Source: Candidatus Nezhaarchaeota archaeon (GTDB taxonomy: Archaea; Thermoproteota; Methanomethylicia; Nezhaarchaeales; WYZ-LMO8). From it: 64,000 nt of DNA. The stretch lies in NCBI GenBank assembly GCA_025059375.1, contig JANXDO010000002.1:1-64000 (forward strand), in the 5' to 3' direction. Positions 7,840 through 32,228 of the stretch are shown piece by piece. The position numbers and the translations under genes were made by a program. The notes beneath the pieces were generated by a model that saw nothing but the letters and a program-made list of their open reading frames with translations, had not been told where the DNA came from and made no database searches. Numbering within the stretch: the first letter of the stretch is position 1; each line of letters begins with the position of its first letter.

Positions 7840-8523
7840 CTATTGCTTAAGAGGTTTTTTAGCTATTGCTACTATGTGTGGTATGCTTGGAGCATCGTCA
7901 CCCTTCAACTCCTCAACCATCACTGGGAATGAGTGTACTCCTACAGGTGGGTGAGTTACACCATAGAATTTTATTGGTTCAAAGCCCACCTCAATTAATG
8001 TTGATCTTAAGCTTTGAGGATTGAAGCCCCTCGCCTCTCGTGCCCTCATCACATCAACTTCAAGGTTTAGAGACTTGCCGGTCAAGGCAGTTAGTTTAAG
8101 CTGATCAGCTATGAAGCGGCTTGCACAACCAGAAGCATTTGGCGTCTCGATTACTATGAGGCCACCATTCCTCAGAGTTCTAAGGGACTCTTTAAGCATG
8201 TTTAGCGGATTTTTAAGGTGCTCTATCACCTCGAAGGCCGTTATTAAGTCGAACACCCCTCCACGGAACGGTAGCGATTCTGCTTCTAACTCGCACTTCA
8301 ATGCCGTTATGCCCCTCCTCCCCGCCCTCAATAATGCTCTCTCATCTCTATCGACTCCATACACCTCTAAGGCCCCTAAGATTGTTGCCACCTTTCTCGT
8401 CAACTCACCATCTCCACAACCAACATCTAGATACTTTATCTTAGAGGGTAGAAGCTTCTTCACCCATTCTATCACGAGTCTTGGGGTCCAGGAGCCTAGG
8501 AGCTCGGAGAACACGGCGCTCAA
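7840..8523 (-). CDS. SAM-dependent methyltransferase, class I
   Basis: 227 residues. Motif I YLDVGCGDGELT (near residue 30) binds SAM, followed by the acidic end of strand 2 (VYGVDRDE), motif II FDLITAFEVIEHL and the later GGLIVIETPN strand. This is the common methyltransferase-11 type, used on small molecules, quinones, lipids or sugars. The start TTG at 8523 is followed directly by the conserved region. It lies 39 bases upstream (in transcription order) of the nitroreductase gene on the same strand, so the two may be cotranscribed. Substrate unknown. Confidence 0.85.
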   Translation of the reverse strand: MSAVFSELLGSWTPRLVIEWVKKLLPSKIKYLDVGCGDGELTRKVATILGALEVYGVDRDERALLRAGRRGITALKCELEAESLPFRGGVFDLITAFEVIEHLKNPLNMLKESLRTLRNGGLIVIETPNASGCASRFIADQLKLTALTGKSLNLEVDVMRAREARGFNPQSLRSTLIEVGFEPIKFYGVTHPPVGVHSFPVMVEELKGDDAPSIPHIVAIAKKPLKQ

Positions 8524-8593
8524 ACCCCTTAAACTTAGTTCCTAGACGTTAAGCTTTCGCAGACCATTTTGAGGTGATTAGGCTGCACATGGG

Positions 8594-9004
8594 TTAGGGG
8601 ATGAAGAGGGTCTCCACATTAACTCTCTCAGCCACCTCTGCTTGATACCTATCTGAGGTTAGGAGCTTAGCTTCAATGTGCTTGGCTTGAGCTATGTAAA
8701 GCGCATCGTAAATCGTTATATCGTGGCTTAAGGAGAGGTCAAAAGCTTGCTCAATGTACTTGTCCTGCGAGTCTAGGAGTATTACCTTCTCCTTAATAAG
8801 CATCATCAGTACGTTAAAGACCTCCTTAGCCACATCCCCCTCAATCCTCTTGAGCTTAATGCTGTGCCTCCATATGGTGTTCGCCACCTCCTTCACTACG
8901 AGATCTAGAGAATGAACTCCTTCAACCATTCTGGACTCCACGTCCCTCCAACCCTGCTCCCTCAAGATGTACTTCGCGAGAGCAGAGGCATCAATGACTA
9001 TCAC
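8594..9004 (-). CDS. vapC: PIN-domain ribonuclease toxin, VapC family
   Basis: 136 residues with the PIN-domain acidic residues in order: IDAS (D5), VKEVAN (glutamate near 39), IYDALY and LLTSDRY. VapC toxins are Mg-dependent RNases that cut specific tRNAs or rRNA and are held inactive by their VapB partner. The ATG at 9004 overlaps the end of the antitoxin gene by 14 bases, which is usual for coupled toxin-antitoxin translation. Length and order (antitoxin first) are normal for archaeal VapBC pairs. The target RNA is not predictable. Confidence 0.9.
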   Translation of the reverse strand: MIVIDASALAKYILREQGWRDVESRMVEGVHSLDLVVKEVANTIWRHSIKLKRIEGDVAKEVFNVLMMLIKEKVILLDSQDKYIEQAFDLSLSHDITIYDALYIAQAKHIEAKLLTSDRYQAEVAERVNVETLFIP

Positions 9005-9218
9005 GATCCTCCCTCACGTAGCTGAAGGTCGTGCCGCGAGGAGCTTCTGGTAACTTCTCTATCACCTTACGAGCTTCAGCCAATGCCTTCAATCTACGGT
9101 AGTATTCAATTCTACTGTTCAAGAACGATATTATCTCCCCCCTCCAATCAACGTCTTTAAGCTCCTCAAGCGACTTTTTGAGGTCTCTAGGTATACGTAT
9201 ACTCAGCACATCGCTCAT
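8991..9218 (-). CDS. vapB: VapB-type ribbon-helix-helix antitoxin
   Basis: 75 residues. The N-terminal VLSIRIPRDLKKSLEEL is a typical ribbon-helix-helix strand and first helix that binds DNA as a dimer; the charged C-terminal tail (about 45-75) would wrap the VapC toxin. It overlaps vapC by 14 bases. Its own start region and promoter contain repeated GTATAC palindromes, the likely operators through which the VapB or VapBC complex represses its own transcription. ATG at 9218 follows a GGTGG element. Confidence 0.88.
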   Translation of the reverse strand: MSDVLSIRIPRDLKKSLEELKDVDWRGEIISFLNSRIEYYRRLKALAEARKVIEKLPEAPRGTTFSYVREDRDSH

Positions 9219-9272
9219 ATACGAGCCACCACATGTTATTCGTATACAGCGGGCCTATAAAGCTTTGTATAC
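9191..9272 (-). promoter_or_regulatory. vapBC promoter with four GTATAC operator half-sites
   Basis: GTATAC palindromes occur twice in tandem (9191-9202, inside the first codons of vapB), at 9242-9247 and at 9267-9272. The last two flank a TATA-like box (CTTTATAGG on the minus strand, about 9255-9263) and are 25 bases apart. Bound protein would cover both sides of the TATA box and the start region, as expected for autorepression by a ribbon-helix-helix antitoxin. Confidence 0.6.
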
Positions 9273-9475
9273 AGATCACTAGATCATAGAATGACAGTTG
9301 ACAGTGCAGCCCACAACAACCCTTAGTTAGTAGGAGGCAAATAGTGCTTTAAATCCATTAATCTAAACTTCTTTTTGACGGTTGACCACAAAGCTGGCTA
9401 TAATTCAAAAGCACTATAGATTGTAGTAATTTATGACCTTTGGCTTATCGTCCTAGAAGCTCGAAAATCACAATT

Positions 9476-10882
9476 TCACCCTTCAACTCTCTTAACTCTT
9501 ATTACTTGCTCGTCTCCTCTAAGCCCGTAAGTTAAGATTGCTAGGTCTCCAAGCTTAACTTCATTTAATTGTCTAAGTAGCTTGAATGTTTCTTCTAGAC
9601 CCTCATCATAGCTTGACGCTTTAACCAAGTAGCCTTTAACTCCCCATAGTATGTTTATCTGCCTTAAGACCTTAATGTTTGGTGTTCCAACATAGAAGTC
9701 TACTGTTGGCCTCATTAGTGATGCTAGTCTAGCTGTATTGCCATAGACGCTGTAGATTATGAGCTTAGCTTTCAAGTCCTCAGCTAGTGATATGACCCCC
9801 TTAGTGAAGCTTGCCCATAGACTCTTAGCTTCACGATGCCTTGTTACCTGCAAGTTTTCCTCAGCAACCTTGATTATCCTCCTTAACCACTTTACAGCCT
9901 CAATTGGATACTTACCTACAGCTGTCTCTCCAGTTAACATGAGGGCGTCAACACCTTCAGATACTGCAGCGTTGATGTCGACGACCTCAGCTCTCGTTGG
10001 TACTGGACTATCCATCATTGACTCTAAAAGTTGAGTAGCAATTATCACGGGCCTCTCCATATCTATAGCCTTGCTAACTATGAGTCTCTGAAGTCGTGGG
10101 ACATTCTCTAGCCCCATAGCCATACCTAAGTCTCCTCGAGCAACGAGCACGGCATCAGCTGCCTCCACTATTTCATCAAGGTTCTCAATAGCAGACTTAG
10201 TCTCTATCTTAGCTATTACCTTGACGTCTTCGTGCCCCCACCTCTTCAGTATGCTGCGTAGGGACAGAATGTCTGCTGGAGTCCTCACGTAGCTTAAGCC
10301 TAAGTAGTCTACGTTACGATTCAAAGCGAACTTTAAGTCAGCTAAGTCCTTGTCGGTTAATGCTGGGAGCTCGAAGTCTTTGTTTAAGACGGCTAGAGAC
10401 TTCCTAGACCATATGACGGCATCGGTTAAAGCCATTAACTCCTTGTAATTTGAAGTCACATCGAGGACTTGTAGCTTCACCTTACCGTCATCCATTAGTA
10501 TGACGTCCTCAACATCCAGGAGCTCGTAAACCACCTTAACTGGTAGAGGTACTTCATGCTTATCTGCAGACCCCTTATCACTTAAAATCAACTTTACTTT
10601 ATCACCTCTCTTAAGTTGAATCACTCCATTAATCTCACCAAGCCTAATCGATGAGCCACGCAAATCTCCTATAAGTGTTAAAGGTCTCCTCAAGAGCTCT
10701 TCAACCTTAAACAAGTTGTCTATAACGTGTGACCAGAAGGAGTGGTCTCCATGAGCAAAGTTTATCCTAAATCCTGAAACTCCAGCTTCAACTAGCTTAA
10801 GTATAGTCTCAAAGCTGCTAGATGATGGCCCCAGTGAGGCTATAATCTTCGTCTTAACATCTTTAACCATAGGATTCAACAT
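9476..10882 (-). CDS. pyk: Pyruvate kinase
   Basis: 468 residues, the short form lacking a C-terminal phosphotransferase-like extension. It makes pyruvate and ATP from phosphoenolpyruvate and ADP, the last step of glycolysis. Visible signatures: KTKIIASLGPSS at the N-terminus, FRINFAHG (substrate loop), the B domain around residues 65-165, AKIET with the catalytic lysine, ARGDLGM (metal and substrate site) and LTGETAVGKYP. The start ATG at 10882 lies about 25 bases after a TATA box, so the mRNA appears leaderless. No other glycolytic genes are near. Confidence 0.95.
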   Translation of the reverse strand: MLNPMVKDVKTKIIASLGPSSSSFETILKLVEAGVSGFRINFAHGDHSFWSHVIDNLFKVEELLRRPLTLIGDLRGSSIRLGEINGVIQLKRGDKVKLILSDKGSADKHEVPLPVKVVYELLDVEDVILMDDGKVKLQVLDVTSNYKELMALTDAVIWSRKSLAVLNKDFELPALTDKDLADLKFALNRNVDYLGLSYVRTPADILSLRSILKRWGHEDVKVIAKIETKSAIENLDEIVEAADAVLVARGDLGMAMGLENVPRLQRLIVSKAIDMERPVIIATQLLESMMDSPVPTRAEVVDINAAVSEGVDALMLTGETAVGKYPIEAVKWLRRIIKVAEENLQVTRHREAKSLWASFTKGVISLAEDLKAKLIIYSVYGNTARLASLMRPTVDFYVGTPNIKVLRQINILWGVKGYLVKASSYDEGLEETFKLLRQLNEVKLGDLAILTYGLRGDEQVIRVKRVEG

Positions 10883-19281: not shown

Positions 19282-19528
19282 CCCTTCCCTAATATAGCTT
19301 ACGCTCTGAACCACTTACTAGTTAGTAATAGCCTCAAGATAGCTTATCCCTTTTCGCCTTCCTTTTGCATGGCTTTAATAAAATATATGCGCTCTATAGT
19401 TGAGTCACTGTGCAAATATTCTCGTAAAAGGCTTGCACGTCAGGTGTTCCGCCTTAAGCACACAAGAAAGCTAATGCTCTTATTCTTCATGTAATACGGT
19501 TGCTTACTTGACGCGCCCTCAACGTTGT

Positions 19529-20098
19529 CTACGTGAATTTGGGGATTTTATAGGTTAACCTGCTAGGATATGCCTCCATGGTCTCGAGGCTTCCATCAAT
19601 TAATCCTTTCAGGTAGCCCTCCAAGTAGCCCCTCATGAACTCTGACTCCGCCACCAGGGGATTGAATATTATCAGTATGTTGCTGTGGATCCTGAAGTTG
19701 CCCCACCCAGATCTTCTTGAGAGCTCTAGTAGTAAGCGCGATGCTTCATCCCTACTGTTTAACGTAACACCTTCAGGTGGTGGTGCTAGGAACGACATCG
19801 TTATCCTCGATTTGTACCCAACGTCCTTGCCGACGTTGTACTGCTTCTCAGGTTCAAGGCTTTGAAGTATCCCGGTGAAGGTCTCCTGAGTTATTATCCC
19901 AATCCTCCTAGGACCGTAGTAGAAGATTCCCTCGCTCCAACCAGTTATCCCCGTGTACTTGTCTAGGTCCAGTAGCTTCTCCACCAAGCTTCTAAGGTCC
20001 TTGGCAACACCAGTCCTTATTAGCTCCATCGCATGCCTATAGTGCTCCTCTGATAAGTATAGAGTTGTCTTGACCTTCTTCTCAGCCATCACCACCAC
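19529..20098 (-). CDS. Ribbon-helix-helix DNA-binding regulator with C-terminal sensor-like domain
   Basis: 189 residues. The N-terminus (KKVKTTLYLSEEHYRHAMEL, then SLVEKLLDLD) has the strand-helix-helix pattern of ribbon-helix-helix regulators. The rest (about 50-189) is an alpha/beta domain containing FYYGPRRIGIITQ and, near the end, ESEFMRGYLEGYLKGLID, which recalls the C-terminal helix of V4R small-molecule sensor domains, although the V4R cysteines are absent. It is divergent from the transhydroxylase-like operon with 229 bases between the starts. It is therefore a good candidate for that operon's regulator; the ligand might be a phenolic compound. Function is inferred. Confidence 0.6.
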   Translation of the reverse strand: MVVMAEKKVKTTLYLSEEHYRHAMELIRTGVAKDLRSLVEKLLDLDKYTGITGWSEGIFYYGPRRIGIITQETFTGILQSLEPEKQYNVGKDVGYKSRITMSFLAPPPEGVTLNSRDEASRLLLELSRRSGWGNFRIHSNILIIFNPLVAESEFMRGYLEGYLKGLIDGSLETMEAYPSRLTYKIPKFT

Positions 20099-20279
20099 CC
20101 TACGAACTCAATTCGAGTATTAAAGGAGGCTTTAAGCTATAAGCTTTGAAGGAGCTCATCGCTCTACGGCGAGCCACAACTGGACCTCGAGCTTTGAGCA
20201 ATTGAGGTTCGAGGGGTTACCGTAGACCTTTAAGCAACGCATCTCTGGACAGGCATAGATGTAATGTGACGGTTCTAGA

Positions 20280-20305
20280 CGTCTGCAGACGCAAAGCTTA
20301 TCCGC
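20280..20305 (+). promoter_or_regulatory. Operator palindrome and TATA box of the transhydroxylase-like operon
   Basis: CGTCTGCAGACG (20280-20291) is a perfect 12-base palindrome. Directly after it AAAGCTTATC (about 20293-20302) can serve as TATA box; its expected start point, near 20325, matches the ATG at 20328, implying a leaderless mRNA. Overlapping the palindrome is GACGTCT, also found at the promoter of the MFS gene at the other end of the locus. Confidence 0.5.
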
Positions 20306-20327
20306 TGTATCGTGATATGCAGTAGTC

Positions 20328-22910
20328 ATGCCCACAAATGCCTTCCCAACAGATCACAATGAGAAGATCTACACGAATTGTACTGTTGGTGGCCCAGTCC
20401 ACGTTCACGTTAAGGATGGCAGGATAGTCAGGATAAGGCCTCTCGACATAAGGCCTGAAGATGTTGAACCGTGGGTCATAGAGGCGAGGGATCGTAGGTT
20501 CTCTCCTCCAATCAAGGTGACCGTGGCGCCTTACGTGCTAGCTGAGAGGTGTCGAGTGTACTCACCTAAGAGGGTCCTTAAGCCGCTTAAGAGGGTGGAC
20601 TTTGACCCTGATGGCGAGAGGAACCCCCAAAATAGGGGTTTATCGGGTTACGTGGAGATATCGTGGGGTGAAGCTATCGAGATCGTGGTCAACGAGATCG
20701 TTAGGCTTAAGGAGAGGTATGGCGCATCGTCGATAGCTGCGTTGGCATCATCACACCACACGTGGGGTAACATAGGGTACAGGACTAGCGCATTTCAACG
20801 CTTCTTCAACATGCTCGGCTGCACTTACATCGATCACAATCTCGATAGTTGGGAGGGCTGGTATTGGGGGGCAATACACACATGGGGCTTCTACTGGAGA
20901 TTGGGGCAGCCAGAACAGTACGACCTGCTCGAGGACGCCCTCAAGCACACTGAAATGATAGTCTTCTGGTCTGCGGACCCAACAGCAACTCAAGGGAACT
21001 ACGCTGGTCAAGAGTCTGAGAGGTGGAGATTGTGGTTGAAGGAGTTGGGCGTGAAGATGGTCTTCATAGACCCCTTCTTCAATCACACAGCCGCTAAGTA
21101 CGCTGACAAGTGGCTATCCCCATATCCAGGGACCGACGTGGCTCTAGCCCTAGCAATTGCCTACACTTGGATCAAGGAGGGGACGTATGACGAGGACTAT
21201 GTGAGCAAGAGGTGTCACGGATTCGATGAGTGGAAGAGGTACGTGCTGGGTGAAGAGGATGGAACCCCCAAGACGCCTGAGTGGGCTGAGGAGATATGTG
21301 GGGTCTCGAGGGGCGACATAGTGTGGTTGGCTAGGGAGTGGGCATCGAGGAGGACCATGTTGGCCCCCGGCGGTAGACCGGGCTTTGGAGGGGCTTGTAG
21401 GACAGCTTATGGTCACGAGTGGTCTAGGATGATGGTCACGCTCCAAGCAATGCAGGGGCTTGGGAAGCCTGGCGTGAACATATGGTCTACGACCACTGGA
21501 GCTCCTTGGAACTATGAGTTCTACTTCCCAGGTTATGGGGAGTGCGGCATCTCAGGCGATGGAGCTGGCATACTGCGTCTAGTGCCCAGTGGCTTCGTGA
21601 AGAGGGTTACGAGGAACACCGTGAGGCAAGTAGTTAACAGGTTGCTACTGCCCGAGGCCATACTCAACCCCCCGCTCTCATGGAGGAGGTGCTCTCCTTG
21701 GGGTGAGTCGATGGAAGTTCAATTCGATCTCTGCACGTACCCAATGCAGGGCTACTCTAAGATTAAGATGCTCTACAGGTATGGAGCCTCCTACATTGGG
21801 ACCATGACTGAGACGAACAGGTACATTAGAATGTACAGGAGCCCAAACCTCGAGTTCGTCGTGTGCCAGACGATATGGATGGAGCCTGAAGCCAAGTTCG
21901 CCGACTTGATACTCCCGGCGTGCACGAACTTCGAGAGGTGGGATATAGGCGAGTGGGCTGGCATATCGGGTTACAGCCCAGACCTAGCCTCCTGCAACTT
22001 CAGGATAATAGTGTTGCAGATGAAGTGCATTGAGCCCCTGGGGGAGTCTAAATCCGACTACGATATCTTCACAATGTTGGCTGAGGAGCTGGACTTCAAG
22101 GAGGAGTACACAGAGGGCAATAGCGAGCTGGATTGGGTCAAGAGGATGTTTGAGGTGAGCGACATGCCAAAGTACATCTCGTGGCAGGACTTCATGAAGA
22201 AGGGCTACTTCATAGTCCCAATACCGAAGCCGTACAGGTCGAGGACCGCATTTAGGTGGTTCTACGAGGGCAGGAAGAAGGACACCCCCGACAGAGGTCC
22301 AACGCCTAAAGATAGGCCAGTCTACGGTTATGGGCTAGCGACCCCGACCGGGAAGATAGAGCTTGTATCTGAGAACTTGAAGAGGTTTGATCCCAATGAT
22401 CCTGAGAGACCAGTAAAGCCCAAGTTCATAGAGCCTTGGGAGTGGTACAGGAGTGAGAGAGCGAAGAAGTACCCATTGCAGTTGGTCTCCCCACACCCTA
22501 GGTACAGCTTCCACACTCAATACGATGGCAAGGAGACCTGGATTGACGAGATACCGCTGCACAGGAGGAGAGGGCCTGATGGCAGGTATTACTGGGTGTT
22601 GAGGATAAACCCCAGCGATGCGGAGCCCAGGGGGATTAGGGATGGGGATCTAGTCAAGGTCTACAATGATCGTGGAGCTGTCGTGTGCATAGCAGAGGTG
22701 ACTGAGCGCATTAGGCCAGGCGTCGTCCACGCCTACGAGTCTTCAGGACTCTATGAGCCCATTGGAGATCCAGGGAAACCTGATAGCATAGATCTAGGTG
22801 GCTGCATCAACTTGTTAACCCCCTCACGATTAATGTCTAGGAACGCTACGGCCATGGCCCCGAACTCATGCTTAGTTGAAGTTGAGAAGTGGGGTGGGCT
22901 CGGTGGTTAA
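20328..22910 (+). CDS. Molybdopterin oxidoreductase, pyrogallol-phloroglucinol transhydroxylase-like alpha subunit
   Basis: 860 residues of the DMSO-reductase family. From memory it follows the Pelobacter acidigallici transhydroxylase large subunit along its whole length: GGPVHVHVKDGRIVRI, ERNPQ, SSHHTWGNIGYR, DHNLDSWEGW, EQYDLLEDALKH, YEFYFPGY. The residues known there as Mo ligand and active site (Ser175, Asp174, His144, Tyr152, Arg153, Tyr404) line up with S174, D173, H143, Y151, R152 and Y403. Trp354 appears as F353. The N-terminal 4Fe-4S cysteines of most relatives are missing, as in transhydroxylase, and there is no Tat signal, so it should be cytoplasmic. That enzyme moves a hydroxyl between trihydroxybenzenes. 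The beta subunit gene overlaps its end. A related hydratase or dehydroxylase activity remains possible. Confidence 0.82.
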   Translation: MPTNAFPTDHNEKIYTNCTVGGPVHVHVKDGRIVRIRPLDIRPEDVEPWVIEARDRRFSPPIKVTVAPYVLAERCRVYSPKRVLKPLKRVDFDPDGERNPQNRGLSGYVEISWGEAIEIVVNEIVRLKERYGASSIAALASSHHTWGNIGYRTSAFQRFFNMLGCTYIDHNLDSWEGWYWGAIHTWGFYWRLGQPEQYDLLEDALKHTEMIVFWSADPTATQGNYAGQESERWRLWLKELGVKMVFIDPFFNHTAAKYADKWLSPYPGTDVALALAIAYTWIKEGTYDEDYVSKRCHGFDEWKRYVLGEEDGTPKTPEWAEEICGVSRGDIVWLAREWASRRTMLAPGGRPGFGGACRTAYGHEWSRMMVTLQAMQGLGKPGVNIWSTTTGAPWNYEFYFPGYGECGISGDGAGILRLVPSGFVKRVTRNTVRQVVNRLLLPEAILNPPLSWRRCSPWGESMEVQFDLCTYPMQGYSKIKMLYRYGASYIGTMTETNRYIRMYRSPNLEFVVCQTIWMEPEAKFADLILPACTNFERWDIGEWAGISGYSPDLASCNFRIIVLQMKCIEPLGESKSDYDIFTMLAEELDFKEEYTEGNSELDWVKRMFEVSDMPKYISWQDFMKKGYFIVPIPKPYRSRTAFRWFYEGRKKDTPDRGPTPKDRPVYGYGLATPTGKIELVSENLKRFDPNDPERPVKPKFIEPWEWYRSERAKKYPLQLVSPHPRYSFHTQYDGKETWIDEIPLHRRRGPDGRYYWVLRINPSDAEPRGIRDGDLVKVYNDRGAVVCIAEVTERIRPGVVHAYESSGLYEPIGDPGKPDSIDLGGCINLLTPSRLMSRNATAMAPNSCLVEVEKWGGLGG

Positions 22911-23487
22911 GTGGGCAATGGTAATAGACCTGAAGAAGTGCACGGGCTGCTATAATTGTGTATTGGCGTGTAAGGATGAGTTCTGGGGCAACCCCTACCC
23001 CCCGTACTCAGCTCCACAGCCAAAGTTTGGTCACTTCTGGATTAGGATAGAGAAGAGGGAGGAGGGTAGGTGGCCAAACCTGATAAGAGTGACGTACACC
23101 CCCATGCTTTGCATGCACTGCGATGAGCCATCGTGCATTAAGGTCGCCAAGGGCAATGCAGTGTACAAGAGGTCTGACGGCATCGTAATAATTGACCCGG
23201 AGAGGTCTAGGGGGCAGAGGGAGATAGTTGACTCCTGTCCATATCGATCAGTGTTCTGGAATGAGGATCTACAGATACCTCAAAAGTGCACGTTCTGCGC
23301 CCACTTGATAGATAGAGGTTGGACGAAGCCTAGATGCGTTGAAGCTTGCCCAGTAGACGCCATAGTGTTTGGCGACGCAGAGGACCCGAGCAGCGAGGTC
23401 TCAATGCTAATATCTCTGGGGAAGGCTAAACCCCTACATCCAGAGTATGGGACTAGGCCCAGAGTCTACTACATAGGCTTGAGGTGA
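22903..23487 (+). CDS. Transhydroxylase-like beta subunit, three 4Fe-4S clusters
   Basis: 194 residues. Cysteine motifs CTGCYNCVLAC, CMHCDEPSC, SCPY and CTFCAHLI with later RCVEACP can hold three 4Fe-4S clusters, as in the transhydroxylase beta subunit. Shared details include MVIDLKKC, GHFWIRIEKRE, DGIVIIDPE, QKCTFCAHL and a final RVYYIGL. The Pelobacter protein then continues with a prealbumin-like domain of about 75 residues; here the gene stops, so that domain is absent. GTG 22903, just before the alpha stop and giving an 8-base overlap, was chosen because the N-terminus then matches the family; a TTG at 22876 is possible. It also resembles NrfC-type electron carriers, but the paired alpha subunit decides the call. 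Confidence 0.85.
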   Translation: MVKWAMVIDLKKCTGCYNCVLACKDEFWGNPYPPYSAPQPKFGHFWIRIEKREEGRWPNLIRVTYTPMLCMHCDEPSCIKVAKGNAVYKRSDGIVIIDPERSRGQREIVDSCPYRSVFWNEDLQIPQKCTFCAHLIDRGWTKPRCVEACPVDAIVFGDAEDPSSEVSMLISLGKAKPLHPEYGTRPRVYYIGLR

Positions 23488-23504
23488 GCTTGCCGCTCGA
23501 CTTG

Positions 23505-24734
23505 CTACCACGATGTGCCCTTCTTTGAAGGCTTCATCTTGGCTAAGCCAGCTACAGCCAGGACTAGTGCCATCAAGTAGGTCGCCATGCCCAATTGCAG
23601 TGCAGCCACGTAGCTCTTGGTGACGTCGGCTATCAGCCCACCAATCACCGGTGACGTCAGGGAGCTCAGCCCCAGCATGAGGGTCCATAGCCCCAAGACA
23701 GTTCCAACGGAGCTCGGGCATATGTCGCCAGCGCAAGCTGCATAAGTCGGCCACAGACCTCCAAAGAATAGCCCATACATCAACATTATCAACGGCAGCA
23801 AGCGCACGAGCGGGGTGCTTTGTGGGAGGAGCGAGAATAGGGCTAAGCTAACTGATGCAACCCCATTGCTGGCTGCTAGAATCGTGGCCCTCCCAACTCT
23901 GTCAGAGACCCAGCTCAGTAGCAGTGCTCCAGCAATGCCAGTGAAGCCCATGAGGCTGATCATCGATGAGGCCTCGACGTACGGCATCTTGACCTCACGC
24001 TCCAAGAAGTCCACTAGGAACGTTAGGACTATGTACGTCCCAAAACCCATGAAGGAGTAGGAGAGGCCAATCAACCAGAATCGCCTCGAAGACAGCACAT
24101 CCCTGTAATTAACGAGCCTCCTACCCTCAAGCCTCAGGCTAGACCCTCCACCCGCCCTCGCGAGCCAATGAAACGCTAAAGCGTAGGCGAATAGGGGGAG
24201 TGCGAAGACGAGCCAAGCCGCTCTCCAGCCCAGGGCCAGAGCCACTGGAGGCAACAGTAGACCGACGGCTCCATGAGAGGCCCTTATCCCCACCTCCAAC
24301 ACCCCAGCGCTCCTACCCCTCCAAGAGCTCGGCAGGTACGAGGATGCCAAGGCGACCATGGGCGTCCAAGCCGACGCTGCCCCCAAGCCAGCAAAGGCTA
24401 GCGAGAGCAGCAGGGATGGGTAGTTGCTCGATAGCCCCACCAGGACCATGCCGAGCCCGTAGACGACGCACAAGGCGCTCACAATCCTAATGCCAAACCT
24501 ATCGAAGAGCCTACCAGAGGCCACCGAGAACGCGGAGTACAGCATTATGTACACGGAGTACGCGAAGCCAGCTTCAGCCCTACTGAGGCCCAGGTCCTCA
24601 ATCATCCTCGGCAGGAGGACGCCGTAACCGAACCTAGCAATGTAGGAGAAGAAGAGGAAGGAGGAGGCTAGCGACAGGATCAACACGTAGAACCTAGTAG
24701 ACCCCCTAGAGCCCAATCCTCGACCATCGACCAT
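23505..24734 (-). CDS. MFS transporter next to the transhydroxylase-like operon
   Basis: 409 residues, 12 membrane helices, OFA/MCT-like pattern: GYGVLLPRMIEDLGLSRAEAG, GRLFDRFGIR (motif A), GLGAASAWTPMVALASSY and SDRVGRATILAASNG. It is a paralogue of the MFS gene at 15926. The gene converges on the transhydroxylase-like operon (17-base gap). A start at 24815 would lie upstream of the TATA-like box (24773-24789), so ATG 24734 is preferred. The promoter carries the GACGTCT motif also found at the transhydroxylase promoter, so a role as importer or exporter of its phenolic substrate or product is a reasonable guess, not proven. Confidence 0.82.
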   Translation of the reverse strand: MVDGRGLGSRGSTRFYVLILSLASSFLFFSYIARFGYGVLLPRMIEDLGLSRAEAGFAYSVYIMLYSAFSVASGRLFDRFGIRIVSALCVVYGLGMVLVGLSSNYPSLLLSLAFAGLGAASAWTPMVALASSYLPSSWRGRSAGVLEVGIRASHGAVGLLLPPVALALGWRAAWLVFALPLFAYALAFHWLARAGGGSSLRLEGRRLVNYRDVLSSRRFWLIGLSYSFMGFGTYIVLTFLVDFLEREVKMPYVEASSMISLMGFTGIAGALLLSWVSDRVGRATILAASNGVASVSLALFSLLPQSTPLVRLLPLIMLMYGLFFGGLWPTYAACAGDICPSSVGTVLGLWTLMLGLSSLTSPVIGGLIADVTKSYVAALQLGMATYLMALVLAVAGLAKMKPSKKGTSW

Positions 24735-24759
24735 CAACGCCCACCATCCAGTGATGTCA

Positions 24760-24789
24760 ACGTCCCTGGACGTCTTAAAGCTTTTTAGC
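24760..24789 (-). promoter_or_regulatory. MFS promoter with inverted repeat and TATA box
   Basis: On the minus strand AAAAAGCTTTAAG (about 24774-24787) is a TATA-like box; directly after it comes ACGTCC-AG-GGACGT, an inverted repeat at 24760-24773 located between TATA box and start point, where a repressor would act. Plus-strand GACGTCT (24769-24775) is identical to the core at 20278-20284 by the transhydroxylase start. Confidence 0.45.
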
Positions 24790-24808
24790 GAGGAGAGTGG
24801 AGCTAGAT

Positions 24809-24841
24809 GCCCCACGAGCTAATGAATTCGATTGGTGGGGC
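24809..24841. repeat. Inverted repeat GCCCCAC/GTGGGGC
   Basis: Seven-base perfect arms (24809-24815 and 24835-24841) separated by 19 bases, in the intergenic region between the MFS gene and the surface-protein operon. It could be an operator or an RNA hairpin; no U run follows it. Confidence 0.35.
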
Positions 24842-24974
24842 TTGAGCCGTGAACTATTACAGCTATTGTAGGAGCTAGCAGGATCTCGAGGCAAGGAAAA
24901 CTCGGTCAACAAGTATTACCCAGAAAGCTTTTTTAACGCGATTAACACAGTGTCGGCTTGATTGGGGGGCTAGT

Positions 24975-25556
24975 ATGAAGGGCTACTTAACGATAGCACC
25001 AATAGTGGTGCTCCTAGCGACCTCAATAGCGCTGGCAACAGTGTTCGTCTACTACCCACTAACAGTAACCATAGAGCCAACGGCACCAGGAGTGAGGTTT
25101 TGGAAGGGTAGCAATGCCGATCAACCAGACATCGGCCCTTACAGGATCACTGTGACCCTCGGGCTTAACAATACTAGTGCATCCATCGTGATACACCCAA
25201 CGTACCAAGAGAACTACTACAAGGACATCTTACGAGTCCGTAATTACGACGACGACGCGATGTACGTGTACTTCATCTTCTACAGCTGCGAGGGGAACCT
25301 GCCACCCGGGAGTAGCGTCGTGATGATTATATATGAGGGTGCAACGAAACTCAACGTAACTAATATCACAGTCCCGACACTGAATCAAGCAATTTACATG
25401 AACCGAATTGGTTCAAAAGGTATTTGGCAGATCGACTTCTACGTAAATATGACTGAAGGACACGATATAACCTCCGCAATATATGTGGCTACCATGCGCT
25501 TGGTCTACACGCCTGTTAACGAGACCCCACCAGTAACACCATCGACAGGTAGATAG
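24975..25556 (+). CDS. Secreted pilin/fibre-like protein (TasA or archaeal bundling-pilin type)
   Basis: 193 residues. The N-terminus (MKGYLTIAPIVVLLATSIALATVFVYYP) is one hydrophobic helix that could be a signal peptide ending at an A-T-x region; the rest is extracytoplasmic and beta-rich with several N-x-S/T sites, ending in a P/T-rich tail. ILRVRNYDDDAMYVYFIFYS resembles the core strands of camelysin/TasA-type proteins. It is directly followed by an ER-type signal peptidase gene (14-base gap), the order of Bacillus tapA-sipW-tasA and of archaeal bundling-pili loci. Its YYPLTVTIEP junction recurs in the 754-residue protein downstream (YYPVTVGVSP). The fibre role is inferred from these parallels. 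A GGGGGG ribosome site precedes the ATG. Confidence 0.55.
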   Translation: MKGYLTIAPIVVLLATSIALATVFVYYPLTVTIEPTAPGVRFWKGSNADQPDIGPYRITVTLGLNNTSASIVIHPTYQENYYKDILRVRNYDDDAMYVYFIFYSCEGNLPPGSSVVMIIYEGATKLNVTNITVPTLNQAIYMNRIGSKGIWQIDFYVNMTEGHDITSAIYVATMRLVYTPVNETPPVTPSTGR

Positions 25557-25570
25557 CAGCGAGATGCTCT

Positions 25571-26647
25571 ATGTCGACTAAATCTCTCTCTTTTTTAATT
25601 CGTGTCTCTACTATAGTGTTCGTATTGGTCTCGATAGTCCTGGTCTTCTCTCTCCTATCCAGGTTAGGCTACTTGAACTTCTTTGGCGTTGCCATAGTCT
25701 TCTCTGGCAGCATGGAGCCAACTCTTAGCAGGGGCGACTTGGTCCTCTACGCCAACCTCGACTACTCGCCTGGAGACATCATCGTCTACTGTAAGACTCC
25801 AAGCTACGCCGTCGTCCACAGGTTTGTTGAGGTCTCTCCGTGGAATGGCGAGGTGATATTTACCAAGGGCGATGCCAACGACGTCTACGATCCACCAGTC
25901 CATAGGGGCATGGTCAGGGGAAGGGTCTTGCTCGCAGTCCCGTGGTTCTTGTGGGCACCTCTCACTGCCCTATTCATTGCCTTCGCCATTTACGACATGT
26001 TGAGGTCTGGAGCCATAGGCTACTCCTACGCCATAGCGTTCACGCTAGCCTTAGCCTACATATTCGCTGTCTACGCCGTCGCTCCTCAGCCAATTGCGCT
26101 TGGCCCCGTTAGGCTCCCGTTGATGAGCTTGTCGGGGGTCTACGTCAACTACGATGATGGCACGATTAGGGTCAAGTACACTGGTGAGCTCTCGATAACC
26201 GACGTATCGGTCTACGTGAACGGGGTCCCCGTCAAGGTCTTGTGGTTTAGTGAGAGGGAGGTGGTCTTGCAGCCCCCTCTAGAGCTCCTGGGCGAGGCCT
26301 TCGAGCTTCACAAGCCGCTCCAAATAACAGTGGAGGCCAGGCTCAACATGATCGGCAAGCTATCTGGCAACTACACCACGCTGGTTGGCGGTTGGGACCT
26401 GCAGGTCTCTCCAGTCGATGGCCTCCTGTACGTTAGGAACCCCAACTGCTTCCCGGTCTCGGCTAGGGTCTCAATTAGGTACAGCTATGGTGGTGAGTGG
26501 ATGTGGTTGAACAGGACCCTGGTGGTCGATGGGAGGTCTCAGGTCGTCGTCGAGCCACCTGAGGGCTCTAGGTATGCTTACGCCTACGTGTACTGGCTAA
26601 ATCAGGGTGTTGAGAGGTGGGTGGGCGTACCGCTGAGGAGAGGCTGA
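25571..26647 (+). CDS. Signal peptidase I, archaeal/ER (S26B) type, with extracytoplasmic extension
   Basis: 358 residues. After one N-terminal membrane helix comes FSGSMEPTL with the nucleophile S47, then VVHRF with H83 (this branch uses histidine instead of lysine) and KGDANDVYD with the acidic residues. A second pair of helices (about 130-172) is followed by some 185 residues of beta-rich extracytoplasmic sequence, more than the roughly 150-200 residues of an ordinary archaeal enzyme. The enzyme cleaves signal peptides at the outer face of the membrane. Placed between two secreted or surface protein genes it is probably dedicated to them, like SipW in Bacillus. Its end overlaps the next gene by 31 bases. 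Confidence 0.88.
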   Translation: MSTKSLSFLIRVSTIVFVLVSIVLVFSLLSRLGYLNFFGVAIVFSGSMEPTLSRGDLVLYANLDYSPGDIIVYCKTPSYAVVHRFVEVSPWNGEVIFTKGDANDVYDPPVHRGMVRGRVLLAVPWFLWAPLTALFIAFAIYDMLRSGAIGYSYAIAFTLALAYIFAVYAVAPQPIALGPVRLPLMSLSGVYVNYDDGTIRVKYTGELSITDVSVYVNGVPVKVLWFSEREVVLQPPLELLGEAFELHKPLQITVEARLNMIGKLSGNYTTLVGGWDLQVSPVDGLLYVRNPNCFPVSARVSIRYSYGGEWMWLNRTLVVDGRSQVVVEPPEGSRYAYAYVYWLNQGVERWVGVPLRRG

Positions 26648-28881
26648 GCAGCTTATCCAGGCTGCTAATCGTAGCATCCGGTGCCCTAGGCATAGTCGTC
26701 TCCCTGCTCTACCTCTTGGTCGCGCTCATGCCGATATGGTACTTCGAGGGCTACATTGCTGGCTACTACGGCTTCATAGACTACAGGCTGGTATACAACC
26801 ACGATGGCCAGCTAATAGTCCTCCCGCACGCAAACTACGTGAGGCACGTCTCGATCTCGTTCGCCATGGCGTCGATGGTCATGCTCGCCCTATCCACGAC
26901 GTCGACATTGCTAGCAGCCATGAATAGGAGGGTGCTGGCTCAAGCAGGAGTCATCTACGGGGTCTCGTGCGGCTTCGTCATAACCTTTGGGCTCCTCTAC
27001 GGCTACCTGTACAGGGTTATGGACCTGGACGTCAGCGCGTTTAGTTCACTGATAACCAATGGCGAGCCCCTAGTCTTCAGGACGAGCGCTGGAGTCGTCA
27101 TCTACGAGGGCGTGACGGTGAGGCCGAGCCCCATATACACCTACGTGCTCGCGAATGGGGTCTTGAGGCTGCTAATAACACCGGCCTCTGTGCTATCTGC
27201 GCTAGCCTTAGCCATAGCGTTATTGAAGGACTTGAGGCGAGCAGAGGTTGAGTTGAAGCGAGGCGAACCTTTAAGTCCGGTGAGGCTCAGGATGGCGCTA
27301 ACGTACTCCTTGCTGTTCTCAACGGTGCTCTTCTCAGTAGCTTCAGTCTACACGTACTATCCAGTAACTGTAGGGGTGAGCCCAGTACCACCAACAGCAA
27401 CATTTGAGCCACCGCCCTATTACCTCACGTGCGTTGCGTTGACGAGGACCGCTAGAGGGGCATTGAACTGGACGGACTTCGAGACGTACCCGGTGCCAGG
27501 GTGGGCATCTCGAGGGGGCATCTGGAGCCTCGGCACTGGGTTCAAGGGCTTTGCTCTAAACGGGACGGACAATAATGGGGGTATAGGGTGGGCTTCTCAG
27601 TACTACTGGAACCGCAGCGTTGGTAACTACAGTAGCCTCTGGGTAGCTGTCAAGACCAGGGCACACACAACAACAGACGCGTACAAGGGGATAGGACTCA
27701 TCAATGGAACCTTGAATAGGATCTACGAGATAGCGGTGTACGGTAGTGCGTTAACTATTTATAAATGGAACGGAACCTGGAGGCTTTTAGGCAGCTCTTC
27801 AATACCCGGTTACTCACCAACTGCTTGGTACACGATAGTGGTCAACTACAGCGTTACGGGCGTAGAAGTCAGGCTTGTGGCCTGGGCCTACAACGCCACT
27901 GGGTCGTTGGTGGCCAGTCTAAACGTATCGGATAGAGCGACTGATAGGTTCACTCCAGTGTACGTTGGCGTCACGATAGATGGTCTTGGCTACCACCTCT
28001 TCGACGACTTCATCGTCTCCACGAGGGACCCAAGGAGCATCCTGTTTGACGGATTCGACTCCGGCATGAGGGTTGAGGTCTGGGATGATCTCGGCATCCT
28101 AGTCAACTCCACGACCGCCCCAGCACCATCCTTCCACCTGGGCGTTACGACTGACGTGGTTGTTGGTAGGGGTTCTGATGGCAGGATAGTCGTTAGGTAC
28201 CCCGATGGCTTCCTCTCCGGCAATTACACTGTCCCTCTAGCGGATGCGATCTTGGGCGGCGACGTCTACAATCTGTCCTTGCGCCCCATGTTCTGGAGCT
28301 TCGGCCCCAATAGGACGAGTGCTAACTTGATGGTGTACTTATCGAGTAGCATTGCTTTCAACACCACGGCTAGGATCCTCAGGGTGAATACGAGTCAGCA
28401 GCTCTATGCCAGGTTAATACTGGAGAACATAAGTGCCCCGACGACTTTGAATGCAAGTCTATGGTTGATTGGTTCGATCAACTCCACTAGCATAGAGATC
28501 TGGAGTGGCGTGCCCCTCACCAGGACCACAAACATCGTAGCGCTCAACCTTGGGCTCAATAATTCGCTAGCACTATCAGGCTACTTCGCAACCACCGGCC
28601 AGAACGCGACTTTATGGTTGAAGCTGGAGTTCTGCACGCTACCCGATGGTCGAGGAGCGTGCTTCTACTACCCAATACGCCTAGAGCTGAGGAGCGGCTC
28701 GTCGAGTGGCACGACCACTGCACCACTCGGCACTACGACCATTGAGCCTGGTCCAAGCGACTACTTCGTGGAGTGGGGCTCCGATGTGGGCCCTACGGTT
28801 GATCATGCCGTGCACGATGGCGTGGATTACCACGTTGATGAAGAGCGACTCGGTGAAGATCGTGTGACTGCTCGAGATTGA
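26617..28881 (+). CDS. Large membrane-anchored surface protein with pilin-like and LamG-like regions
   Basis: 754 residues. Residues 1-200 contain four hydrophobic helices. A fifth helix (about 228-248) runs into VYTYYPVTVGVSPVPP, very like the mature start of the 193-residue protein upstream (VFVYYPLTVTIEP). From about 280 to 480 a beta-rich region (DFETYPVPGWASRGG, then YYEWNR-like and VNYSVTGVEVRL segments, FDDFIVST) resembles LamG/concanavalin-type folds; many N-x-S/T sites follow. Near 715 there is a T/S/P-rich linker. The last 35 residues are hydrophilic, whereas another frame there encodes a membrane anchor, so a late frameshift is possible. Probably a surface or fibre-associated protein; not assigned to a named family. 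GTG 26617 has GAGAGGT upstream. Confidence 0.6.
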   Translation: MGGRTAEERLSSLSRLLIVASGALGIVVSLLYLLVALMPIWYFEGYIAGYYGFIDYRLVYNHDGQLIVLPHANYVRHVSISFAMASMVMLALSTTSTLLAAMNRRVLAQAGVIYGVSCGFVITFGLLYGYLYRVMDLDVSAFSSLITNGEPLVFRTSAGVVIYEGVTVRPSPIYTYVLANGVLRLLITPASVLSALALAIALLKDLRRAEVELKRGEPLSPVRLRMALTYSLLFSTVLFSVASVYTYYPVTVGVSPVPPTATFEPPPYYLTCVALTRTARGALNWTDFETYPVPGWASRGGIWSLGTGFKGFALNGTDNNGGIGWASQYYWNRSVGNYSSLWVAVKTRAHTTTDAYKGIGLINGTLNRIYEIAVYGSALTIYKWNGTWRLLGSSSIPGYSPTAWYTIVVNYSVTGVEVRLVAWAYNATGSLVASLNVSDRATDRFTPVYVGVTIDGLGYHLFDDFIVSTRDPRSILFDGFDSGMRVEVWDDLGILVNSTTAPAPSFHLGVTTDVVVGRGSDGRIVVRYPDGFLSGNYTVPLADAILGGDVYNLSLRPMFWSFGPNRTSANLMVYLSSSIAFNTTARILRVNTSQQLYARLILENISAPTTLNASLWLIGSINSTSIEIWSGVPLTRTTNIVALNLGLNNSLALSGYFATTGQNATLWLKLEFCTLPDGRGACFYYPIRLELRSGSSSGTTTAPLGTTTIEPGPSDYFVEWGSDVGPTVDHAVHDGVDYHVDEERLGEDRVTARD

Positions 28882-29005
28882 GGCGAGCCCCGGTGGTCAT
28901 CGATTGAGCTCAAATTGCCCCTGCTATCTAGCCGGCTTCAGGGCTCGATCGTGATCTAGCTCGTGCACCAAGTGACTCGAAGGCCTGGCTCCTTGTGGCA
29001 GTGGC

Positions 29006-29920
29006 ATGGCCGCTGACCCCTCAAAGCAAGCTATTAATAGCCTCTGGCGTCACAGGGGGTATCGGAGGGCCAGCCACTTGAGGGCTCTTAACGACCTCCT
29101 ATTCGGGACCGCTGGCATACCGATCAGCACGCCAAAGCCCGCCACCAGCGTTAACGGGATCTTGAGGGTCAGGGAGCTGGGTCTTGGAGCCATGGAGCTG
29201 GAGTTCGTTAGGGGGGTTAGGATGAGCGATGACCTGGCCTACAAGGTTAGGAGCGTTAGCGAGGCTGCCAAGGTAGTATTAACAGCACACGCCCCATACT
29301 ACATAAACCTGAACTCGCCGGATAGATCCAAGGTTGAGGCTAGCATAGGCAGGATACTCGACACAGCTAGGGTAGCGTACAAGGCTGGTGGCTGGTCCAT
29401 AGTCTTCCACCCAGCTTACTACGGCGGCGACCCCCCTAGCATAGTCTACGATAGGGTTAAGGAGAGTCTAAAGAGGATAGTGAGGGCCCTTAGGGATGAG
29501 GGCGTCGAGATATGGGTCAGGCCGGAGACCTCGGGTGGGCTCGCTGAGTTTGGGAGCTTGGAGGAGGTCGTGAGGCTTAGCTTGGATGTCGAGATGGTCT
29601 TGCCGTGCATAGACTTCGCTCACATTCACGCCAGGACTCTCGGTAAGTATAACGGGTATGAAGAGTTCGTCGAGATACTGAACTACCTCGAGAAGGAGCT
29701 GGGTAAGGAGGTGTTGAGGAACATGCACATGCACTTCTCAGGCATAGAGTACGGGGATAGGGGCGAGGTCAAGCACGTCAACCTAGACGAGTCCGACTTC
29801 AACTACAGGGAGCTAGCTAAGATCCTCAAGGACTACTCGATTAGGGGCGTCATCATAAGCGAGTCCCCGAACATAGAGGGGGACGCCCTCATACTGAAGA
29901 GGGCTTACGAGGAGGGTTGA
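29006..29920 (+). CDS. Endonuclease IV-like TIM-barrel protein (AP endonuclease 2 family)
   Basis: 304 residues. The metal-binding residues of endonuclease IV appear in order: HAPYY, FHPAYYGG, RPETSGG, CIDFAHIHA, MHMHFSG, a D-x-x-x-x-x-H segment (GDRGEVKH) and SESPN. The enzyme family opens DNA at abasic sites with three zinc ions, but related sugar isomerases share the barrel; the complete ligand set favours a nuclease. The first 30 residues before LLFGTAGIP look non-conserved and the true start may be a TTG at 29078. The following gene, a deacetylase-fold hydrolase, is 72 bases downstream on the same strand. Confidence 0.75.
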   Translation: MAADPSKQAINSLWRHRGYRRASHLRALNDLLFGTAGIPISTPKPATSVNGILRVRELGLGAMELEFVRGVRMSDDLAYKVRSVSEAAKVVLTAHAPYYINLNSPDRSKVEASIGRILDTARVAYKAGGWSIVFHPAYYGGDPPSIVYDRVKESLKRIVRALRDEGVEIWVRPETSGGLAEFGSLEEVVRLSLDVEMVLPCIDFAHIHARTLGKYNGYEEFVEILNYLEKELGKEVLRNMHMHFSGIEYGDRGEVKHVNLDESDFNYRELAKILKDYSIRGVIISESPNIEGDALILKRAYEEG

Positions 29921-29992
29921 GGGCGAGCTAGATCGCCGACGAGCCCATGATGGATGAAGCCCTTAATAGTTGTACGCATTCGGTGATGCCTC

Positions 29993-30838
29993 GTGCCCAA
30001 GACGGGCGTATTCTTCAGCCCAGTCCTGAGGGGCAGGGATTGGCCGATCATCGGCGACAAGTTCGCTAACTTCCCGGACGTCATGGCCGACGTCCTCAAG
30101 AACCCGAACATTGCCCTCTACAGCCCCAGGCCAATCGATGAAAAGCTGCTCTACAAGGTCCACACGGCAAACGTGATCATGGACTTGAAGTCGGCTTGGT
30201 ACTACGAGGGCGCCATATACTCTGTCGGCGGGTGCGTCGAGGCCTTGGAGAGGGTGTGTCGAGGGGAGATAGTTAACGCCCTGGTCTTCAATGTGGCGGC
30301 TGGCCATCACGCTGGCCCCTCGTACGCTTGGGGCGGGACCTACGTTTCGTGCACTGGGCCCATGATAGTCAATGCTAGGCAGAAGTTCGGCGTGGAGCGC
30401 TTCGCCATAGTTGACACCGACAGCCATCACGGCGATGGCGATAGAGCCATGTTCAAGGGGGACCACAATGTGCTGCACGTCTGCTTCTGCAGTAGGAATG
30501 CCGTCGAGGATGGTGGCACGAAGATAGACGTGGACGTCGGCTGGAGGACCACGGACAGCGACTACTTAAGGATTGTTGAGAGGGAGTTGAGGTCGAGGGC
30601 CTTGGAGTTCAAGCCATACGCCATAATACACTTCTTTGGCCACGACACCTGCATTGGGGACTACGGGGATCGAGGGCTAACGCCCAGCCTTTACCTGGAC
30701 CTAGCTAGGCTGGTCAAGTCGATAGCTGAGGAGGCCTGCGAGGGCAGGTACATCATAATAACCGGTGGGGGGTCGAGGAGGGACGTCGCTGAGTACATCT
30801 TCCCGAGGATAGCGAGGATACTGGCCGAGCAAGCTTAA
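29993..30838 (+). CDS. Histone-deacetylase-fold hydrolase
   Basis: 281 residues of the arginase/deacetylase superfamily. Signatures: the tandem histidines AAGHHAG (H105, H106), the zinc site DTDSHHGDG (D143, H145), the third ligand in FFGHDTCIGDYGDRGLT, and the closing GGGSRRD. Such zinc enzymes remove acetyl groups from lysines, polyamines or small molecules; archaeal members act on Alba, histones or acetylpolyamines, so the substrate is open. It is shorter than the classic 340-400-residue members and has an unusual C-terminus. The start GTG 29993 is close to the first strand. It probably forms a unit with the endonuclease IV-like gene upstream. Confidence 0.82.
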   Translation: MPKTGVFFSPVLRGRDWPIIGDKFANFPDVMADVLKNPNIALYSPRPIDEKLLYKVHTANVIMDLKSAWYYEGAIYSVGGCVEALERVCRGEIVNALVFNVAAGHHAGPSYAWGGTYVSCTGPMIVNARQKFGVERFAIVDTDSHHGDGDRAMFKGDHNVLHVCFCSRNAVEDGGTKIDVDVGWRTTDSDYLRIVERELRSRALEFKPYAIIHFFGHDTCIGDYGDRGLTPSLYLDLARLVKSIAEEACEGRYIIITGGGSRRDVAEYIFPRIARILAEQA

Positions 30839-31837
30839 TCAGAGCATCTTAAACGTTGACAGCAGCGCCAGCAGGATTGATGTCGCGGTTAGGTCAGCCG
30901 TTGTGCCCGGGTTGTAGGAGGGGCCCTTGAGCTCTAGCTCCCTGTCAAGCTCCTCCAAGAGCCTCCTACCACTACTCGTCATGAGTCCACCGAGCTCCAG
31001 GATTTCGCGAGCCCTCTTAGACATAGCCTCAGCCTCAATTAAGCCCAACTTAACAGCCTCGTCTATTGGTGCATCTGGTTTAAGCGCGAGCCCAACGTTC
31101 CTAGCAATGAACGTGTCAGGCTTCTCAGAGAGTATTTTTAGGAAGCAGTGGACTATGGCCACGTTCACGTCATTGCTCCTCTCATAGGCCTCTATTAAGG
31201 ACGGGAGCCCAATCCTTAAGCTGATGTTTAAGCCTGAGGTTAACTCCTCGGCGACTCCATCCCACCTCGATGACTCCTTGAGGAGCTCGTACAGCGTTAG
31301 CCTGGTCCTCTGACCTCTAGATGCATCGGGCAGCCCCCTCGGGGGCTTGCCCAAGCCGCTGGGCTTTATTAGAGCTATGGCCCTCATGAGGGCGTTGGCG
31401 TCCTTAGATGTAGTGGCTCGAAGCACCCTCAAGACTGCACCACCTAGATCCTCTATGCTTTTGCCCTCAATCATCCACATCGGTGTGGAGGATGCTATCG
31501 GTATGAAGAGGATTATGACGCCCAAGTGGGTGTTGCCAGCGCTGTGAGCTTGTAGTTGAAGTTTCACTGCCTTCTCTATGAGGGAACCAATCCCCACAGC
31601 CTTCAAGTTGCTGCGAGTCCATGCCCTGTAACCCCTGATGAAGGCCTCCTTAACTGCTGGACCCATAGCAATGGAGCCCGCGATGAACTGCTCAAACCTT
31701 TTGCCCCACTTATCGCTTAACCTATGAATGTTGCCTGGCTTTGGGTAGGCTGAAGCTTCTAGCGCAGCTGCCAGCTGTGCCTTGACCATGAAGTCGAGGG
31801 CCTTCTCCTCAATCCTCTCCATCACCAAGAGTGTCAC
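30839..31837 (-). CDS. Triphosphoribosyl-dephospho-CoA synthase family protein (CitG/MdcB)
   Basis: 332 residues. Family marks: EASAYPKPGNIHRL near the N-terminus, HSAGNTHLGVIILF, the GLGKPPRGLPDASRG loop and NPGTTADLTATS at the C-terminus. In bacteria these enzymes make the prosthetic group of citrate or malonate lyase from dephospho-CoA and ATP. Neither lyase is in the window, and archaeal members are thought to have other roles, so only the family can be called. The stop codon abuts that of the convergent deacetylase-fold gene with no gap. The start may be ATG 31837 or the methionine at residue 6. Confidence 0.8.
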   Translation of the reverse strand: MTLLVMERIEEKALDFMVKAQLAAALEASAYPKPGNIHRLSDKWGKRFEQFIAGSIAMGPAVKEAFIRGYRAWTRSNLKAVGIGSLIEKAVKLQLQAHSAGNTHLGVIILFIPIASSTPMWMIEGKSIEDLGGAVLRVLRATTSKDANALMRAIALIKPSGLGKPPRGLPDASRGQRTRLTLYELLKESSRWDGVAEELTSGLNISLRIGLPSLIEAYERSNDVNVAIVHCFLKILSEKPDTFIARNVGLALKPDAPIDEAVKLGLIEAEAMSKRAREILELGGLMTSSGRRLLEELDRELELKGPSYNPGTTADLTATSILLALLSTFKML

Positions 31838-31883
31838 CTACACAAGCTTAATATCCCTTAGTTGCTAGAGGAGACTTGGTGGA

Positions 31884-32228
31884 ATGATGGAAATAAAGTT
31901 TAAGGCCGTGGTGATAAGCAAGTCGATATACGGTGACCCAATGGGCGGCAAGGGGGTCAAGATAGAGCTCGCCGAGGAGAGGGAGCTTCCGCCACCAATA
32001 TTCATGTCTAGGGGGGAGGGCTCCGAGATAATGAAGGAGGTAATGCCTCTTGTGAGCCAAATAGTTCAAGCCCTACCATTCACTAGGGGAGGGAAGGTTA
32101 CAGTTCCTAGATTAATGCTGTGGTTGTCTGAGGATGAGTGGGATAAGTTGGAGCCCAAGCCGGATATAGGGGATGAAGTTGAGGTTGTGGTGTCTTCAGG
32201 TAGGGTAACTATATCCTCGTCCAGGTGA
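31884..32228 (+). CDS. Arcadin-1-like protein
   Basis: 114 residues. The N-terminal FKAVVISKSIYGDPMGGKGVKIELAEERELPPP pattern (shown in parts: VVISKSIYGDPMGG, KIELAEERELPPP) matches my recollection of arcadin-1, a protein encoded with crenactin, the archaeal actin of Thermoproteales, Korarchaeota and Caldiarchaeum. The C-terminal half (IGDEVEVVVSSGRVTI) suggests a small beta fold. Crenactin itself is not in the window. The gene overlaps moaE by four bases (ATGA), so the two are cotranslated. If the family call is wrong it is a conserved archaeal protein of unknown role. Confidence 0.5.
   Translation: MMEIKFKAVVISKSIYGDPMGGKGVKIELAEERELPPPIFMSRGEGSEIMKEVMPLVSQIVQALPFTRGGKVTVPRLMLWLSEDEWDKLEPKPDIGDEVEVVVSSGRVTISSSR

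Follow-up and report, generated by a model that had tools for sequence, protein, structure and literature searches.

A three-gene operon of a Nezhaarchaeota archaeon that looks like a widespread cousin of the archaeal thread and bundling-pilus systems

The window analyzed in this study, a stretch of 64,000 nucleotides (nt) from contig JANXDO010000002.1 of a Candidatus Nezhaarchaeota archaeon (assembly GCA_025059375.1), carries on its forward strand three closely spaced genes, which probably constitute a self-contained operon for a donor-strand filament akin in type to the archaeal threads and bundling pili, furnished with a processing peptidase of its own, a minor subunit for one end and a membrane protein for anchoring or assembly. 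These genes, referred to below as A, C and D-B, look like the means by which this hot-spring-type archaeon makes a cell-surface fibre, and they resemble, as a previously uncatalogued and widely distributed relative, two archaeal fibres described recently. An initial annotation had proposed a fibre subunit accompanied by its own SipW-like peptidase and by a second substrate of that enzyme, and this central idea was upheld by the predicted fold of the subunit, a peptidase profile and a common signal junction.

Analysis of open reading frames (ORFs) confirmed the three genes at positions 24975–25556 (A), 25571–26647 (C) and 26617–28881 (D-B), coding for proteins of 193, 358 and 754 amino acids (aa), respectively. 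Genes A and C are separated by 14 nt, C and D-B overlap by 31 nt, and an overlap of identical length is present in two related loci (L026 and L033). Given this spacing and the conserved overlap, the three genes almost certainly form a single operon. Upstream of gene A and on the same strand, the sequence contains a possible TATA-like box (CTTTTTTAA, positions 24928–24936) and a run of G residues (24964–24969), which could act as the ribosome-binding site of this gene.

Fold of the gene A protein and the shared signal junction

The gene A protein has a single N-terminal hydrophobic helix. Its AlphaFold2 model, for which an alignment of 32 relatives served as input, was obtained as a single chain with a mean predicted local distance difference test score of 89.4. 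When this model was compared with the PDB using Foldseek, just two entries were matched with an expectation value (E) below 0.001: 7PNB (1.8e-7), i.e. the subunit of the Sulfolobus acidocaldarius thread (Saci_0406), and 7UEG (3.6e-5), i.e. AbpA of the bundling pilus of Pyrobaculum calidifontis, also a donor-strand filament. The same two entries led the VIA-align comparison (Z 13.0 and 11.6, respectively; the next entry reached Z 8.0). The alignment with 7PNB covers residues 21–192 of the model, the N-terminal strand included, and pairs residue 21 with residue 24 of Saci_0406, the known mature N-terminus of the thread protein.

At the sequence level, the only PDB entry matched by the gene A profile was again 7PNB, although weakly (E 2.2 with 13 sequences in the profile and 0.022 with 32), and AbpA gave no sequence-profile match. 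Within the thread loci of the Sulfolobales, the same profile found the thread subunits and essentially nothing else, with values down to 1e-9 in this small set. Judging from the fold matches, the alignment of the mature N-termini and the recovery of thread subunits by the profile, the modelled gene A protein is of the fold class shared by both archaeal donor-strand fibres. The likeness to another archaeal fibre protein, CanA of the Pyrodictium cannulae (9H8B/9HDI), is that of a weak beta-sandwich match (Z 6–7), which corresponds to the background level.

The initial annotation had suggested a comparison with TasA and AbpA. The fold does match AbpA, and the thread subunit even better, but membership of the TasA family was not supported by sequence: none of the 32 members of the gene A family matched the TasA/camelysin profile PF12389, which recognized Bacillus subtilis and three other genomes of the phylum (Thermoproteota) above its cut-off. 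The identification of gene A as a TasA/camelysin was rejected on this ground, true TasA-SipW pairs being recognizable elsewhere in the phylum (L085 and L086). The TasA entries 5OF1 and 8AUR are not among the fold matches listed, which does not exclude a TasA fold. In the two archaeal pairs just mentioned, a TasA-type protein (one of which matches TasA structures by sequence) adjoins a SipW-type peptidase, and the peptidases end in a stretch resembling the start of TasA (FFVSG/YFVD and FxLGSFSYFSD). Judging by these motifs, it looks as if the peptidase and the signal of its substrate had been fused.

The predicted signal peptide of gene A (positions 24975–25037) ends with an AxA-type site, A19-L20-A21, and cleavage is expected between A21 and T22, as also indicated by the alignment of the model with Saci_0406. 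The residue at position −1 is small in all 32 members of the family (Ala in 26 of them) and that at −3 is A, V, I, S or T in each case. The predicted cut is followed by the near-invariant V-F-x-Y-x-P, the N-terminal motif that the family conserves best, which in the window lies within the putative donor strand TVFVYYPLTVTIEPT (25038–25082), equivalent in position to the donor strand of the thread. Position +1 is occupied by S, A, T, N, H, W or G, but never by D, and only YY or a single Y is found in the tyrosine motif.

A corresponding junction is present in the third gene, where S240-V241-A242 precedes the predicted cut and S243-VYTYYP follows it, S240-x-A242 being in agreement with the −3/−1 rule. 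A gene A profile constructed without the copy from the window singled out D-B among all ORFs of the window (17.4 bits, residues 231–264), whereas the best of 1000 shuffled versions of this stretch scored 7.4 bits. The junction common to the two proteins, which had been pointed out in the initial annotation, is therefore statistically real. Both junctions fit the pattern of a type I signal peptidase (SPI) site, and cleavage is predicted for both. The initial annotation had named in advance a check for a signal-type cleavage site at this junction and, as observations that would speak against its proposal, an unrelated fold or the lack of such a site; the site is conserved throughout the family and the predicted fold is that of known fibre subunits.

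The dedicated peptidase and the composite third gene

Gene C encodes an archaeal/ER-type signal peptidase (S26B), as shown by a match to TIGR02228 (74.4 bits versus a cut-off of 51.85) and by the conservation of Ser47-Met48, His83 and Asp101/Asp107 in the alignment. According to the hydropathy profile, the third hydrophobic segment is followed by approximately 186 outer residues (residues 173–358; positions 26087–26644), a length close to the 185 residues first reported. This extension is conserved in the peptidases of the cassette family, and it is missing from the only other match to the peptidase profile in this genome, a housekeeping paralogue encoded on contig 3; for this reason "dedicated" is a fair label for the gene C product. 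The score against the SipW equivalog NF046067 (45.9 bits) was far below the curated cut-off of 190. Homology of the extension to A or to the core of B is not claimed, as the profile scores were at or slightly above those of shuffled controls. In four Thermoproteaceae-like genomes of one other family (f12), only compact matches to the peptidase profile were found, a result that is uninformative with respect to the AbpA locus.

Two other loci with unusual signal peptidases were encountered. In S. acidocaldarius (L147, positions 4499–6365), a second, extended signal peptidase of 368 aa is encoded at a great distance from the thread genes, next to a small secreted protein rich in beta structure; this pair possibly represents a further system for a fibre or coat. 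In the probable genome of Ignisphaera aggregans (L148, positions 5630–9379), which carries the cassette as well, an unusual protein with multiple helices and a terminal signal peptidase domain is located beside three secreted proteins with a common MWSETLxVNVAV junction, and this arrangement may correspond to a separate SipW-like system with substrates of its own.

The third gene had been described as encoding a large surface protein, and its composite nature had been missed: it is a fusion of two genes that are separate neighbours in most relatives, one for a four-helix membrane protein (D) and one for a second pilin-like protein with a variable insert (B). The first 212 residues (positions 26617–27252) constitute a separate family (D) with four hydrophobic helices, two outer loops and conserved residues P39, G45, G49, A158 and G159, as indicated by the alignment, hydropathy and flanking charges. 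No credible match to D was obtained in Pfam or among PDB sequences, and no known family was found for it. The B part begins with a fifth, signal-type helix and the junction described above (27280–27363), which includes the donor-strand-like segment SVYTYYPVTVGVSP. It continues with an inserted domain (approximately residues 287–490; 27475–28086) and, toward the C-terminus, a pilin-like core homologous to gene A (approximately residues 553–690; 28273–28686). A comparison of this core with the gene A family using hhalign yielded a probability of 90.8% and a score of 46.5, while 20 column-shuffled controls did not exceed 15.0. The insert, a conserved domain of about 200 residues between the junction and the core, had no credible match in Pfam or among PDB sequences; from its sequence it is possibly lectin-like.

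The hydropathy of the fusion protein is consistent with a topology in which the N-terminus lies inside, the four helices of D return the chain to the inside, and the signal helix of B then leads outward. The flanking charges and the placement of the N-glycosylation sequons agree in this respect, every sequon of the protein being located at or after residue 284. Matches to DUF4010 and DUF4731 were below the cut-off and limited to hydrophobic stretches, and were disregarded. A frameshift at the end of the gene was also considered and rejected, since a similar Thr-rich acidic tail is present in a locus from the same family (L017).

Conservation of the cassette, proposed assembly and alternatives

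Gene A and a full-length C occur together in no fewer than 41 non-redundant Thermoproteota loci, the window included. The commonest order in the relatives is A-B-C-D, and the order A-C-(D-B), with the D-B fusion, was detected in nine loci of one clade, i.e. in the window and eight others. The parallel with tapA-sipW-tasA that had been drawn from the gene order was thus not retained, the operon being a rearranged A-B-C-D cassette. A search with a profile of D only, which covered 398 genomes, gave 42 matches in 41 genomes. In 31 cases the match was situated within 7 kb of a match to the A family, and of the remaining 11, six were no more than 2 kb from the start of a contig. The co-occurrence of D and A among these genomes is highly significant (Fisher p about 4e-23). 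Weak A matches in four genomes (G057, G078, G285 and G309) are supported by a D match at a distance of 1.5–2 kb. One genome of the same family as the window (G002) contains a different arrangement (L023, positions 7774–10465), in which two tandem A-type subunits are followed by B, with neither C nor D recognized nearby.

We propose that the gene A product, as the main subunit, would cross the membrane via the Sec pathway and be cut by the gene C peptidase at ALA|TVFVYYP. The N-terminal strand released in this way would fit into the groove left open in the following A subunit, and the fibre would consist of beads locked into one another. As B shares this cut site and donor strand and combines an inserted surface domain with an A-like core, it is most likely a minor subunit placed at one end of the fibre, either as a starter/anchor similar to TapA or as an adhesive cap. 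TapA starts its fibre at the base (PMC10151520). Having retained its donor strand as well as its core, B could by analogy do the same, or it could cap the fibre. Since D, encoded independently in most relatives, forms one chain with B in the window, it is probably the membrane partner of B, positioning or holding this end subunit during assembly, and a role in holding subunits may fall to the outer domain of C. A more specific version of this scheme, which we put forward only tentatively, is that D acts as the missing assembly platform of archaeal donor-strand fibres (an "usher substitute" in the membrane) docking the end subunit, and the C extension as a chaperone that holds the subunits. Cutting, holding and the exchange of strands would then take place in one membrane complex, of which the D-B fusion would be a physical trace.

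Two archaeal donor-strand fibres have been structurally solved (7PNB and 7UEG), and no definite chaperone or usher was found in the thread gene cluster by its authors (PMC9715654). The cassette offers two constant candidates for helper proteins, the signal peptidase with its outer domain and the four-helix membrane protein naturally fused to the minor subunit, which could reveal how such fibres are assembled. It is compact and present in cultured hyperthermophiles, among them two species with single-contig genomes, identified as I. aggregans and Thermosphaera aggregans, and the question of assembly is therefore directly testable. Both species have been described as growing in cell aggregates, and T. 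aggregans also as having unexplained flagella-like appendages. The connection between the cassette and aggregation is suggestive only.

Several observations weigh against the proposed filament. The sequence link to the threads is weak (E 0.022), the relationship being carried chiefly by the predicted fold, and the thread-specific mature Asp24 occurs in none of the 32 members of the gene A family. The link to aggregation, which concerns two carriers, is anecdotal, and we found no report in the literature of a filament from any cassette carrier.

It is also conceivable, but in our opinion unlikely, that B is a separate membrane-tethered adhesin, anchored by D and sharing with A only the route of export, and that A filaments assemble without it. 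Such a role would agree with the wide variation of the insert and of the total length of B (272–922 aa among the loci), and with the location of B apart from A-C-D in several genomes: it lies elsewhere in the genome in L120 and L129, and nearby but on the opposite strand in L028. The fused form could, moreover, stay bound to the membrane. However, both the core and the donor-strand region of B are homologous to A, the cleavage motif has been retained even in the D-B fusion, and B directly adjoins A in most loci.

An improbable alternative is that A, as a beta-sandwich protein either secreted or associated with the S-layer, does not polymerise, and that the operon produces a surface coat and no fibres. 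Beta-sandwich matches are common, and the weaker fold matches of A include carbohydrate-binding modules. The protein is also rich in N-glycosylation sequons, as are S-layer proteins; all six sequons of A, as well as all 20 of D-B, are located outside the membrane and signal parts. On the other hand, the two best fold matches are both donor-strand filament subunits, stand well apart from the remaining ones and are aligned over nearly the whole mature chain, and the conserved SVFVYYP strand straight after the cut site is what would be expected of a donor strand.

The system resembles the thread in more than the fold, since in both a signal of the Sec/SPI type is cut just before a tyrosine-rich N-terminal donor strand, the subunits have many N-glycosylation sequons, and a gene for a four-helix membrane protein lies nearby (in 11 of the 12 Sulfolobales thread loci examined, L073–L083, with a length of about 190–280 aa). 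The mature thread subunit starts with an Asp residue, the proposed donor of an isopeptide bond, followed by a YYY motif (PMC9715654). It is nevertheless very unlikely that the cassette is an orthologous thread system of the Saci_0406 type, even with 7PNB as the best match in both fold and sequence: the subunits share 14% identity, A has no mature N-terminal Asp and has YY in place of YYY, no C-type peptidase adjoins the thread genes in the loci examined, the cassette includes a dedicated extended peptidase and a second subunit with a large insert, and the thread cap and 0407 genes match neither B nor D. The four-helix proteins of the two systems are alike in layout but different in sequence (hhalign 0.2%, not significant), and their homology is not claimed. 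Among the ORFs of the thread loci other than the subunits, including saci_0405, 0407 and 0408, no match to the B, C or D profiles was found except for one weak B-like match in L080.

The cassette is therefore filed as a sister family to the threads and bundling pili, a member of neither, which would work like both. In functional terms it parallels B. subtilis tapA-sipW-tasA, where one operon of coupled or overlapping genes likewise provides the subunit of a filament, its minor partner and an ER-type signal peptidase dedicated to them (PMC10151520). It differs from that operon in gene order, in the outer extension of the peptidase, in the presence of the four-helix protein, in the lack of a camelysin/TasA match and in the low SipW score.

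Phylogeny and genomic setting of the window copy

In a tree based on A and C, the copy from the window groups with those of L124 and L125 (support 100), apart from the loci of the same family (L015 and L017). The G+C content of the stretch with the cassette is 54%, compared with 46% in the rest of the window, and horizontal acquisition of the cassette is plausible in view of its composition and placement. The stretch of raised G+C content extends over approximately 12 kb (positions 19500–31900), with third-position GC of 0.56–0.78 (mostly 0.4–0.5 elsewhere in the window). Besides the filament operon, it contains genes for a molybdopterin oxidoreductase with a pyrogallol-transhydroxylase-like domain (20328–22910), its Fe-S subunit and a major facilitator superfamily transporter, as well as for xylose-isomerase-like, histone-deacetylase-like and CitG-like proteins.

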